Below are positions 9,320-11,850 of a stretch of 64,000 bases of DNA, in pieces. The notes below the pieces were generated by a model that was given only the letters and a program-made list of their open reading frames with translations, was not told where the DNA came from and did no database searches. The translations under genes and the position numbers were made by a program. Every line of letters begins with the position of its first letter. The stretch's first letter is position 1. The stretch is from Kribbella pratensis (lineage in GTDB: Bacteria > Actinomycetota > Actinomycetes > Propionibacteriales > Kribbellaceae), in contig NZ_SODU01000001.1 in NCBI RefSeq assembly GCF_004366075.1, positions 1,881,134 to 1,945,133 of the forward strand, written 5' to 3'.

Positions 9320-9454
9320 TCAGTGAAGGAAACCGTCCCACTTCAACTCATACCTGGCACCGCCTGGCATGGCGTGCGGCCCGGGCAGTTCTTCCTCCGC
9401 CCGGGCGAGTTCCAGACCTACGGGCCCGGTCAGATCAGGCACCGGCCTGGCCAT
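9320..9454 (-). pseudogene. N-terminal fragment of ATP-dependent DNA ligase, copy 2
   Basis: This 44-residue open frame begins at ATG 9454 with AGGAG directly upstream and reads PVPDLTGPVGLELARAEEEL then HAMPGGARYELKWDGF. It ends LH-stop immediately after the active-site Lys motif. It closely matches the start of the copy at 6365-7048 but has nothing beyond motif I, so it cannot be an enzyme. The last codons and the following 25 bases resemble those of copy 3 at 11686. The interval 9455-9725 holds no gene I can support. Confidence 0.75.
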
Positions 9455-9725
9455 CTCCTAAGTGTTGCCCTCGGCAAGCTCTGGCGCCACCCCGGCTGGT
9501 CCGCGGGGACGAGTTCGGCAACCTCATGTGGATGCGCCGGCCAGGTGGCACAGACTTGCATTACCTGCGGCCTTCAAGCGCAACTTCTCGAGGCACAGAC
9601 ACCGACTGTCGATCGGCCTGCATTGGAGTCACCCCCACAGTGCGGAGCCCGTCCCTCGCTGGGGCGAGGCGGTCGTAGAGGGCGTCCCGGCGGTGGCCGC
9701 GACGGCGGCCTACCCCCGCGGTCGG

Positions 9726-10295
9726 TCAGCGGGCGGTGAGCCCGGTGAGCAGGAGGGCGAGCCATCGGGCGCGGGCGGTGGGTGGCTGGTCGGCGGGGAG
9801 GGTGTAGAGCATCAGGTACAGGTCGTCGACGGTGAAGTCGGCGCGCAGACCGCCCTGGGCTTGTGCGGTGCGGATGAGCTGGCCGAGGGCCTGGGTGACG
9901 CGGGTCTCCACCTCCTGCATGGCGGGGTGGGCTGCGTGGTCGGCGCCGAGCGCGTACGCGGCTGCTTTGACGGCGCGGTTGTGGGCGACGGTGTCCATCA
10001 CGCGGCTGAGGAAGCCGGTGAGCTCCGCCATGGCGGGTGAACCCTGGCGCGCGCGTTGCAGGCACTCTTCGGCGTCGTCGGCGAGTGTTTCGAACGAGGT
10101 GGCGACCACGGCTGTGACCAGGTCGCTCTTGTTCGGGAAGTGTTTGTACAGAGTTCCGACCGCGACGCCCGCAGCAGCGGCTATCTGCTCCATCGACACC
10201 TCGGGCCCGTGCTCGGTGATCTGCTCATGCGCCGCGGTCATGATCCGGGCGCGGTTGCGGGCCGCGTCGGCACGCAGCGGTCGGGGTGAGGTCAT
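9726..10295 (-). CDS. TetR-family transcriptional regulator
   Basis: A 189-residue repressor starting at ATG 10295 (MTSPRPLRADAARNR); an upstream in-frame GTG at 10313 is possible. The N-terminal HTH is clear: RIMTAAHEQITEHGPEVSME then QIAAAAGVAVGTLYKHF near residues 30-55. The C-terminal ligand domain is helical (VDDLYLMLYTL). It is divergent from the dehydrogenase gene, and a perfect long palindrome lies between them, so it very likely represses both itself and its neighbour. Confidence 0.9.
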   Translation of the reverse strand: MTSPRPLRADAARNRARIMTAAHEQITEHGPEVSMEQIAAAAGVAVGTLYKHFPNKSDLVTAVVATSFETLADDAEECLQRARQGSPAMAELTGFLSRVMDTVAHNRAVKAAAYALGADHAAHPAMQEVETRVTQALGQLIRTAQAQGGLRADFTVDDLYLMLYTLPADQPPTARARWLALLLTGLTAR

Positions 10296-10324
10296 GGAGC
10301 CCTCCGGGACCATTTGACGAAAGA

Positions 10325-10362
10325 TGAATGATGCTTCACTCTACATGGTGAAGCATCATTCA
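10325..10362. promoter_or_regulatory. Perfect 15-bp inverted repeat, TetR operator
   Basis: TGAATGATGCTTCAC (10325-10339) and its exact complement GTGAAGCATCATTCA (10348-10362) are separated by eight bases. The site lies between the divergent TetR and dehydrogenase genes, 17 bases before the latter's ATG. This is the expected position of a self-regulating TetR operator. Confidence 0.85.
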
Positions 10363-10379
10363 CGTTACGGAGGTTGATC

Positions 10380-11303
10380 ATGGCCAGCACGACCGACCGG
10401 TGGACCGAACAGGACATCCCAGCCCAGGACGGCAGGGTCGCTGTCGTCACGGGCGCCAACAGCGGCCTCGGGATGCAGACCGCGCGGGCCCTGGCTGAGC
10501 ATGGCGCGCACGTCGTCCTCGCCGTGCGCAACCTCGACAAGGGCCGCGAGGCCCTCGCCCGCATCAGCGAGCGTGCCCCAGGCGCCAAGCTCAGCCTCCA
10601 GCGCCTGGACCTTGCCTCCCTCAAATCGGTACGCGCGGCCGCCGACGAGCTGCACGCGGCGCATCCGAAGATCGACCTGCTCATCAACAACGCGGGCGTG
10701 ATGTTCACACCCCGGCAGAAGACCGAGGACGGGTTCGACATGCAGTTCGGGGTCAACCACCTCGGGCACTTCGCGCTCACCGGCCTGCTGCTGGACCTGA
10801 TGCTGCGCGTGCCCGGCTCCCGGGTGGTCACCGTCAGCAGCTTCGGCCACCGCATCCGCGCCGACATCCACTTCGACGACCTGCAGTTCGACCGCTCCTA
10901 CAACCGGGTTGTCGCCTACGGTCAGGCCAAGCTGGCCAACCTGATGTTCACCTACGAACTCCAGCGCCGCCTCGCCCCGCACCACACCACCATCGCCGCC
11001 GCCGCGCATCCCGGCGCGTCGGATACCGAACTCACTCAGAACATGAGCGGCCTGGCGCGCAAGGGGGCCGAACTGGTCCAGCCTCTGCTGACCCAGCCGG
11101 CCGCCATGGGAGCGCTGCCCACCCTGAGGGCGGCCACCGATCCCGCCGTCACCGGAGGCCAGTTCTACGGCCCCAACGGCATGGGCGGAACCCGCGGATA
11201 CCCCGAGGTGGTCACCTCCAGCAAGAAGTCCCGCGACACGACCGTCCAGCAGCGCCTGTGGGCCGTGTCCGAGCAGCTCACCGACGTCCGGTTCTCCGTC
11301 TGA
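10380..11303 (+). CDS. Short-chain dehydrogenase/reductase
   Basis: A 307-residue NAD(P)-dependent oxidoreductase of the retinol-dehydrogenase-like SDR subgroup. Visible motifs are the nucleotide-binding VVTGANSGLG (about residues 23-32), the structural LLINNAGVM, the catalytic Ser in VVTVSSFGHR, and the Tyr-Lys pair in YGQAKLAN. ATG 10380 is preferred to TTG 10374 because GGAGG lies six bases upstream. The substrate is unknown. The gene is divergent from a TetR regulator with a perfect operator between them, which suggests induction by a small lipophilic compound. Confidence 0.9.
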   Translation: MASTTDRWTEQDIPAQDGRVAVVTGANSGLGMQTARALAEHGAHVVLAVRNLDKGREALARISERAPGAKLSLQRLDLASLKSVRAAADELHAAHPKIDLLINNAGVMFTPRQKTEDGFDMQFGVNHLGHFALTGLLLDLMLRVPGSRVVTVSSFGHRIRADIHFDDLQFDRSYNRVVAYGQAKLANLMFTYELQRRLAPHHTTIAAAAHPGASDTELTQNMSGLARKGAELVQPLLTQPAAMGALPTLRAATDPAVTGGQFYGPNGMGGTRGYPEVVTSSKKSRDTTVQQRLWAVSEQLTDVRFSV

Positions 11304-11442
11304 GGCCTCCACCCGCGATCGGCCGACCAAGAGGAGAGCGTCGGCCTGCGCTGCTACTCGCGGACCCTGGAGGACCGTGGCCGACTATGCCCCTGGCGGC
11401 GTGGGCGCCGGGACGGCGGTAGGGCACACCGGTGACAGCAGG

Positions 11443-11682
11443 TCAGCGGCGCGCGTCGCCGGGTGCGAGCAGGCTGGTGACCTCGGCGATCGCTTCCGCC
11501 GACGGGTGGAAGTAGCGCCGTACCTTCTCCGGCTTCTTGTGCCGGGACTTGGCCATCAGCATCGGCAGGCCGGCCCCGGCCTCGCCGAGGTGGGTGAGCC
11601 CGGAATGCCGGTATTCGTGGAGGTCCCAGCCCGTGCCCGGTACGCCGACGAAAGGGTGTCGGGAGCGCCACCGCGCTTGACT
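11443..11682 (-). pseudogene. Tyrosine integrase, C-terminal catalytic fragment
   Basis: The minus frame reads VPGTGWDLHEYRHSGLTHLG then MLMAKSRHKKPEKVRRYFHP and ends at stop 11443-11445. These are the HxxR, H/W and Tyr boxes of a phage-type integrase, here of a different subfamily from the one at 2840-3576. Everything upstream of this catalytic end is missing. In its place, in the same reading frame but separated by one TGA, stands the N-terminal ligase fragment. This is therefore a ligase-integrase junction left by recombination or deletion. The interval 11304-11442 holds no gene. Confidence 0.75.
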
Positions 11683-11685
11683 TGT

Positions 11686-11850
11686 TCAGTGAAGGTAGCC
11701 ATCCCACTTCACCTCATACCGTGATCCACCCGGCATCGCCCGCGGTCCGGGGATCTGGTCGACCGATCTCGCCAGCGCAACCTCGACCGGCCCGGCCAAG
11801 TCGGCGGGGATCCGCACCTCGGTCTCAGTTCGCCGACGCGCGGGACTCAT
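11686..11850 (-). pseudogene. N-terminal fragment of ATP-dependent DNA ligase, copy 3
   Basis: A 54-residue frame from ATG 11850 reads RIPADLAGPVEVALARSVDQ then RAMPGGSRYEVKWDGY and stops LH-stop, exactly where copy 2 stops. It is clearly the same family as 6365-7048 but a different sequence from both other copies, so it is not a recent duplicate. It is followed in frame by the integrase C-terminus. The interval 11851-12090 contains no gene I can support. Confidence 0.75.

Follow-up and report, generated by a model that had tools for sequence, protein, structure and literature searches.

The DNA analysed here is a 64,000-nucleotide stretch of Kribbella pratensis (contig NZ_SODU01000001.1, positions 1,881,134 to 1,945,133; hereafter the window), which contains two broken genes for ATP-dependent DNA ligase. 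The two ligase pieces are very probably the left-end scars of a transposon family related to Tn554 that is found inserted in ligase motif I, between the codons KWDG[FY] and R, and that is likely moved by its own two recombinases, TnpA and TnpB. Judged from sequence comparison, the likely mode of movement is site-specific recombination by these two tyrosine recombinases. Both element ends, an exact and repeated insertion point, and in-frame restoration of the ligase upon joining the flanks are evident in the genomes compared, as are tnpA-tnpB genes whose start adjoins the right end, cargo that varies, and a single element body occupying two targets. A preliminary description of the window had proposed that integrative elements use the motif I codons of ligase genes and leave attL-type scars. 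Both proposals hold: the window junctions are left ends, and intact copies elsewhere possess recombinase genes together with 3' ligase halves in the same orientation and mostly in frame.

Interrupted ligase genes in the window

Both N-terminal ligase pieces are encoded on the minus strand. The piece at 9320-9454 translates as MARPVPDLTGPVGLELARAEEELPGPHAMPGGARYELKWDGFLH followed by a stop (44 residues, ending KWDGFLH), and the piece at 11686-11850 as MSPARRRTETEVRIPADLAGPVEVALARSVDQIPGPRAMPGGSRYEVKWDGYLH followed by a stop (54 residues, ending KWDGYLH). Each ligase sequence ends at KWDG[FY], where a common element end takes over: CTTCACTGAAC-nn(n)-GTCAA. Its CTTCACTGAAC part, counted from the codon after F/Y, is the same 11 bases in both pieces. 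The tail thus reads CTTCACTGAAC and then TCTGTCAA at 9328-9310, and CTTCACTGAAC and then AAGTCAAGC at 11694-11675, each with a GTCAA box. The translations confirm the earlier statement that the two pieces stop just past KWDG with a common tail, except that the stop occupies the fourth codon position past KWDG (F/Y-L-H-stop), not the second.

The N-terminal half of ligase A up to KWDGY (11695-11850, minus strand; translation) forms the left flank of element 1, and its alignment reaches the junction with an E value of 2.5e-36. The left end of element 1, CTTCACTGAACAAGTCAAGC, is located at 11675-11694 (minus strand) by end-sequence match and translation. The N-terminal half of ligase B up to KWDGF (9329-9454, minus strand; translation) forms the left flank of element 2, whose left end, CTTCACTGAACTCTGTCAA, is located at 9310-9328 (minus strand) by the same two means. 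The third, longer ligase piece mentioned in the preliminary description, ligase C, is present as well; translation extends it to 6365-7054 (minus strand). It comprises the catalytic domain only (PF01068; translation; relatives), and its motif I site, between 6922 and 6923, is unoccupied and reads through as KWDGFRVGAV. The window contains no tRNA gene.

Left and right ends in other genomes

The sample of 391 genomes comprised 38 from Kribbella and 353 from elsewhere in the order. A 26-base junction pattern, allowing up to 3 mismatches, occurs in 21 of the 38 Kribbella genomes, up to nine times per genome, and in 2 of the 353 others; the reversed control matches 0 of 391. The two matches outside Kribbella are also ligase N-terminal halves, ending KFDGYLH and KWDGYLH before the stop. 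No match to the pattern was found in viral contigs. The interrupted ligases differ from one another, one being LigD-like by eye (MPTSASPMLATLTDERFSDPEWLFERKWDG), and the DNA past the GTCAA box is unrelated between most copies.

Each end was also searched alone, without requiring a ligase. The left end occurs 47 times in the 38 Kribbella genomes, compared with once for the reversed control, and ligase similarity at E ≤ 0.01 is present in the 180 nucleotides upstream of 36 of these. Three of the 36 (G015:C2:760165 and those in G023 and G025) were dropped, as the match ends at least 30 nucleotides short and there is no motif at the junction. Hence a ligase N-terminal half adjoins 33 of the 47 left ends, aligned to the junction in 26 cases, to within 10 nucleotides in 5, and shorter in 2, where the match ends 47 and 70 nucleotides short and the mutated motif is readable by eye. 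The right end, AGAGTTCAGTCAACTAG, occurs 25 times in the same 38 genomes (reversed control, 0). It is followed by a ligase C-terminal half in 23 cases, 20 of them identified by tblastn at E ≤ 0.01 and three as short readings by eye, and the first codon after it is the ligase arginine in 20 of the 25 (by eye).

A ligase query against ten genomes identified C-terminal halves that start at approximately residue 44 and lie on the same strand as the N-terminal half, 0.4-12 kb downstream. Of 18 such loci examined, nine have AGAGTTCAGTCAACTAG (up to 2 changes) directly before the Arg codon of KWDG[FY]R, and the other nine comprise three intact ligases, four joined at a second site described below, and two that are neither. 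Both ends are present in 13 Kribbella ligases, 376-12393 bp apart. Joining the flanks of these paired elements keeps the ligase frame in 12 of 13 and restores [FY]R in 11 of 13; E2 reads YP and E7 is degenerate. The interiors vary in genes and length.

Left ends also occur in genes other than ligases, which appear to be secondary targets: the start of an FAD-type oxidoreductase gene (L270, in L058) and an SDR/epimerase-like gene (L257, L161:11690), both named by eye. The left ends L264, L247 and L273 have CCGTACA[GA]CTG in common just upstream, which may be another preferred site.

Recombinase genes and complete elements

A tyrosine recombinase gene, tnpA, starts beside the right end and reads inward. 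The gene is intact in two paired elements, E6 and E9, and four others (E1, E2, E5 and E8) retain pieces of it. A complete element of ~5.4 kb, with both ends, tnpA and tnpB, is inserted in a ligase gene of Promicromonospora iranensis. Its tnpA (392 residues) overlaps tnpB (840 residues), and the joined ligase flanks read KWDGFRLAAVRDQDG, also given as KWDGFRLAAVRDQDGTRLW. Both TnpA and TnpB match PF00589, and the order R...HxxR...H...Y is seen by eye in both.

Plasmids of Cellulosimicrobium, Paenarthrobacter and Mycolicibacterium exhibit the same order: ligase C-terminal half, right end, tnpA, tnpB and cargo. Among the TnpB plasmid matches listed (40 of 140 records), the ligase C-terminal half adjoins tnpA in all seven inspected records with a TnpB identity of at least 52%, six of them by tblastn and the degenerate M. 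chubuense record by eye only. It is near tnpA in none of the seven inspected records with an identity of 45% or lower, which include R. erythropolis pBD2. Weak matches to the ligase N-terminal half in two of the latter loci (E 1e-4 and 0.009) were taken as chance. Thirty class-wide TnpB loci (36-51% identical) show no ligase, and their flanks, which reach little beyond tnpA, neither support nor refute the association. The left boundary on plasmids was found only in Paenarthrobacter OM7 and AT, where the N-terminal half with the left end is present. The Paenarthrobacter ends are TTCACTGCACT / AGTGCAGTTAA. In Paenarthrobacter AT the codon after KWDG reads TAG, copper genes lie inside the element, and one change is shared by the left and right ends (TTCACTGCAC, GTGCAGTTAA), as would be predicted for ends recognised by a single recombinase pair. 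The genes behind plasmid tnpB include arsenic and copper genes; overall, element-borne or adjoining genes include copper, arsenic, MerB-type, transporter and oxidoreductase genes, several named by eye or from the record. The combination that the preliminary description had suggested looking for, an integrase gene and a matching 3' ligase half flanking an element, therefore exists in Kribbella and in other genera.

A related TnpAB pair (~41% TnpB identity) occurs at L279:8201-8998 and L281:8201-8998. The DUF1016/YhcG nuclease gene that follows its tnpB is truncated, and a second, full one adjoins tnpA. This sister group may use that gene as its site.

Proposed recombination at motif I

The element ends, TTCACTGAAC on the left and GTTCAGTCAA on the right, are imperfect inverted repeats of each other. 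Immediately before TTCAC, the left junction has six bases that agree with the codons of the target (GNTWC plus C or A), and among the paired elements this left spacer changes with the target. The CTAGYC of the right junction hardly varies: all 25 right ends have CTAG or a one-base variant after GTCAA, a feature that the search pattern itself required within one mismatch. Four Paenarthrobacter loci have the spacer CATGCC. With a left spacer that tracks the target and a nearly constant CTAGYC at the right, the element would keep its own spacer at the right and take that of the target at the left. Joining the ends in a circular intermediate would create a core site of 11-bp arms, AGTTCAGTCAA / TTCACTGAACT, around the 6-bp spacer CTAGYC, the usual shape of a tyrosine recombinase core. 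This site of the circle would recombine with the ligase motif I site, such that the left-junction spacer would come from the target and the right-junction spacer would stay with the element.

Motif I (KxDGxR) carries the nucleophile lysine of the ligase. Insertion would abolish the ligase by separating the nucleophile from the rest of the enzyme. Conservation of its codons among ligases and across genera is probably what makes motif I a portable target.

Elements of the window

Element 1 extends from 11694 to ~9498. Its interior (9498-11681, minus strand) is 97.9% identical over 2217 nucleotides to an element of Kribbella G025, the left end of which abuts a different, unrelated gene; one body thus occupies two targets. 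The cargo of element 1 includes an SDR oxidoreductase (10374-11303, plus strand; PF00106) and a TetR-type regulator (9726-10313, minus strand; PF00440). Element 2 begins at 9328, and its right boundary was not found. A MerR regulator (7221-7625; PF13411) and a MerB-domain protein (7622-8569; PF03243), together spanning 7221-8569 on the plus strand, are likely cargo of element 2; a protein that is alike by eye is cargo in E1. The source genome has four left ends, no right end at up to one mismatch, and no TnpA match at E ≤ 1e-15. With left ends only and no such recombinase in the genome, the window copies are relics and probably dead.

Element 1 also carries a C-terminal fragment of an unrelated tyrosine integrase (11443-11651, minus strand; plasmid similarity and translation), which it has in common with the G025 element. 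The preliminary description regarded the ligase piece as fused to this integrase half. An in-frame integrase fragment does lie beside the 11694 junction; it is, however, a passenger from another integrase family than the element recombinases, and its similarity ends at ~11651. Among the plasmid matches listed (20 of 127 records) the similarity spans ~11440-11651 and leaves out the 30 bases adjoining the junction. The 11440-11860 piece matches plasmids via its integrase part alone among the matches listed, the 9300-9480 piece matches no plasmid, and the integrase fragment has no match in phages.

Alternative explanations

Several observations weigh against insertion of Tn554-related elements at motif I as a complete account of the data. 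Fourteen of the 47 left ends and two of the 25 right ends (L218 and L241) are not on a ligase, so either the ligase site is preferred and not exclusive, or some of the non-ligase ends are chance matches. Among the 33 left ends on ligases, three have short matches only (E 1e-4 to 2e-6), and two, in G002, are one sequence found twice. The right-end motif has a single near-match in 394 genomes of the class, with the reversed control found in 2; the exact right-end sequence is for the most part specific to Kribbella. Less than 1.5 kb lies inside five of the 13 paired elements. The remaining eight comprise two with a full tnpA, four with part of it and two without a match at E ≤ 1e-15, so that the majority of copies are non-autonomous or decayed. 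In the source genome, three of the four left ends have a left flank of 231-258 bp in common (90-92% identity), outside which similarity ceases on both sides; this pattern is not explained by simple repeated insertion into separate ligases. Neither a circular form nor movement has been observed.

The repeated segment, about 230-260 bp long, is found at window 11694-11952, L014:3003 (minus strand) and L013:5769, and consists of the ligase N-terminal half and the apparent tail of an upstream frame.

The same three flanks, alike and then diverging on both sides, would be accounted for if the broken halves were duplicated copies of one anciently interrupted ligase, with no repeated targeting. Three genomes also share the sequence downstream of the 9328 end (by eye). 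This explanation is nonetheless unlikely, as the interrupted ligases are of distinct types and occur in several genera, the interiors differ in genes and length, and one element body is found in two targets (Kribbella G025).

Alternatively, the integrase represented by the 11443-11651 fragment could have made the junction, and the ligase piece would then be a plasmid or phage attL site. Located 30 bases inward of the junction, the fragment is in the same frame, which continues after the stop, and its relatives sit on Streptomyces plasmids. We consider this very improbable: in the listed plasmid relatives the match begins only at ~11651, no such fragment is among the reading frames listed for the paired elements (a similarity search was not made), and a different pair of recombinases is found repeatedly next to the right end. 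The integrase of the fragment is therefore very probably not the enzyme that uses the ligase site.

A small, stand-alone ligase-like gene that naturally ends with this tail, as two open frames of 44 and 54 codons with a common stop might suggest, has next to no likelihood. The paired ends contradict it: in 13 Kribbella cases the 3' half that the piece lacks is found past the right end, in the same orientation, and most copies have unrelated DNA after the tail. Cases linked to recombinase genes are also present in other genomes, and the tail is no ordinary gene end. Introns or inteins, removed from RNA or protein, would also fit an insertion at a conserved active-site codon with in-frame flanks, but are practically dismissed, being already contradicted by gene content: the inserts hold tyrosine recombinases and multi-gene cargo and bring a stop codon within a few codons, and four element loci have no Rfam match at the gathering score.

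Relation to known elements

The target of Tn554 of Staphylococcus is radC. Tn554 is described as having one ordinary and one long tyrosine recombinase, imperfect inverted ends and no target duplication (PMC10214605, PMC3414803). The present elements resemble it in their recombinases of 392 and 840 residues, encoded by overlapping genes and both matching PF00589, and in a specific target within a gene, the flanks of which join in frame and without a repeat (P. iranensis; 12 of the 13 Kribbella ligases). They differ in their ligase-motif target, in the actinobacterial hosts seen here, and in that no tnpC was recognised beside tnpAB. In L170 and in seven plasmid records, for which the gene table is incomplete, tnpB is followed by a cargo gene or a ligase; TnpC was sought in gene lists and not with a TnpC profile, so a diverged one could be missed. 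TnpA and TnpB pieces compared with NCBIfam matched no model named for Tn554.

At window positions 2884-4129, a C-terminal fragment of a further tyrosine recombinase precedes a weak match to DUF6262 (below the Pfam cut-off); the arrangement resembles a TnpB-TnpC remnant of another Tn554-like group.

In the actinobacterial Tn554-like pairs of Van Houdt et al. 2012, a long Famint41 and a short Famint36 recombinase of 611-828 and about 350 residues occur without TnpC (PMC3414803). The present pair likewise combines a long and a short recombinase without a recognised TnpC and is slightly longer (840 and 392 residues). TnpB matches a long integrase of pBD2 with 39.6% identity over 87%; no TnpC adjoins the matched pair, the next gene being an HNH endonuclease, and pBD2 has several pairs in the table of that article (PMC3414803). 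The section of the article on these pairs contains neither ends nor an attachment site and suggests that several similar attB sites could exist (PMC3414803, section 10). The difference from the present family is that inspected members with at most 45% identity, pBD2 included, are without a nearby ligase C-terminal half.

The elements termed SEs share with the present family a large and an ordinary recombinase, imperfect inverted ends of 13-19 bp, and a 6-bp spacer of which the target copy comes to lie on one side (PMC10214605). They have four conserved genes, intA-tfp-intB-srap, and Gammaproteobacterial hosts (PMC10214605), whereas a two-gene module is found here. The right spacer in Tn554 and SEs is reported there to be copied from the previous left flank, in contrast to the nearly constant one here (PMC10214605). 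RIT elements (recombinase in trio) are similar in having several tyrosine recombinases per operon and truncated copies, and differ in that the archetype has three recombinases of 315-410 residues, compared with two here, one of 840 residues (PMC3414803, PMC10214605).

A second insertion site in the same ligases

The same ligases are also broken between the VLD and GE codons (L130, L128, L134, L133 and L162, Kribbella), in the motif III region of the ligase. In three cases with both sides present, the joined sequence gives VLDGE[LV]V in frame; two further right junctions were found. The right ends share GTGGACATGTCCACGA (0-2 mismatches) and AANATAAAC|GG; two of the three left ends have GG[GC]G[TC]TATCTG and the third differs. 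Another tyrosine recombinase gene starts at one of these left ends, and a longer relative of this recombinase in L162 matches PF02899 and PF00589. One Kribbella ligase (G005:C13) carries both element families. Ligase C of the window is without the four codons VLDG at the insertion site of this second family (window 6797-6808; between 6802 and 6803), and the gap is perhaps an old excision scar.

Intact ATP-dependent ligase genes follow tnpB on the same strand in two elements, after a 17-bp gap in Micromonospora sp. H61 (L168:13713-14780; left end found, right end not) and after a 4-bp gap in Mycolicibacterium madagascariense (L207:10435-11502; right end found, left end not). The two passenger ligases are 71% identical, and the Pfam domains are present in that of M. 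madagascariense. They support, without proving, the idea that elements bring their own ligase. More speculatively, at least two transposon families, one reading motif I and another motif III, could share ligase genes as portable docks, with an intact element-borne ligase replacing the broken one and providing a new dock, so that nested arrays would grow.

Implications

Nothing on a ligase target for such elements was found in the open-licence literature. Exact ends, an exact target and a complete element for the actinobacterial Tn554-like type make the reaction directly testable. The target consists of catalytic codons, and their conservation among genera and plasmids would allow a single element to enter many hosts. 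Within Kribbella, ligase-targeting elements explain many of the broken ligase genes.

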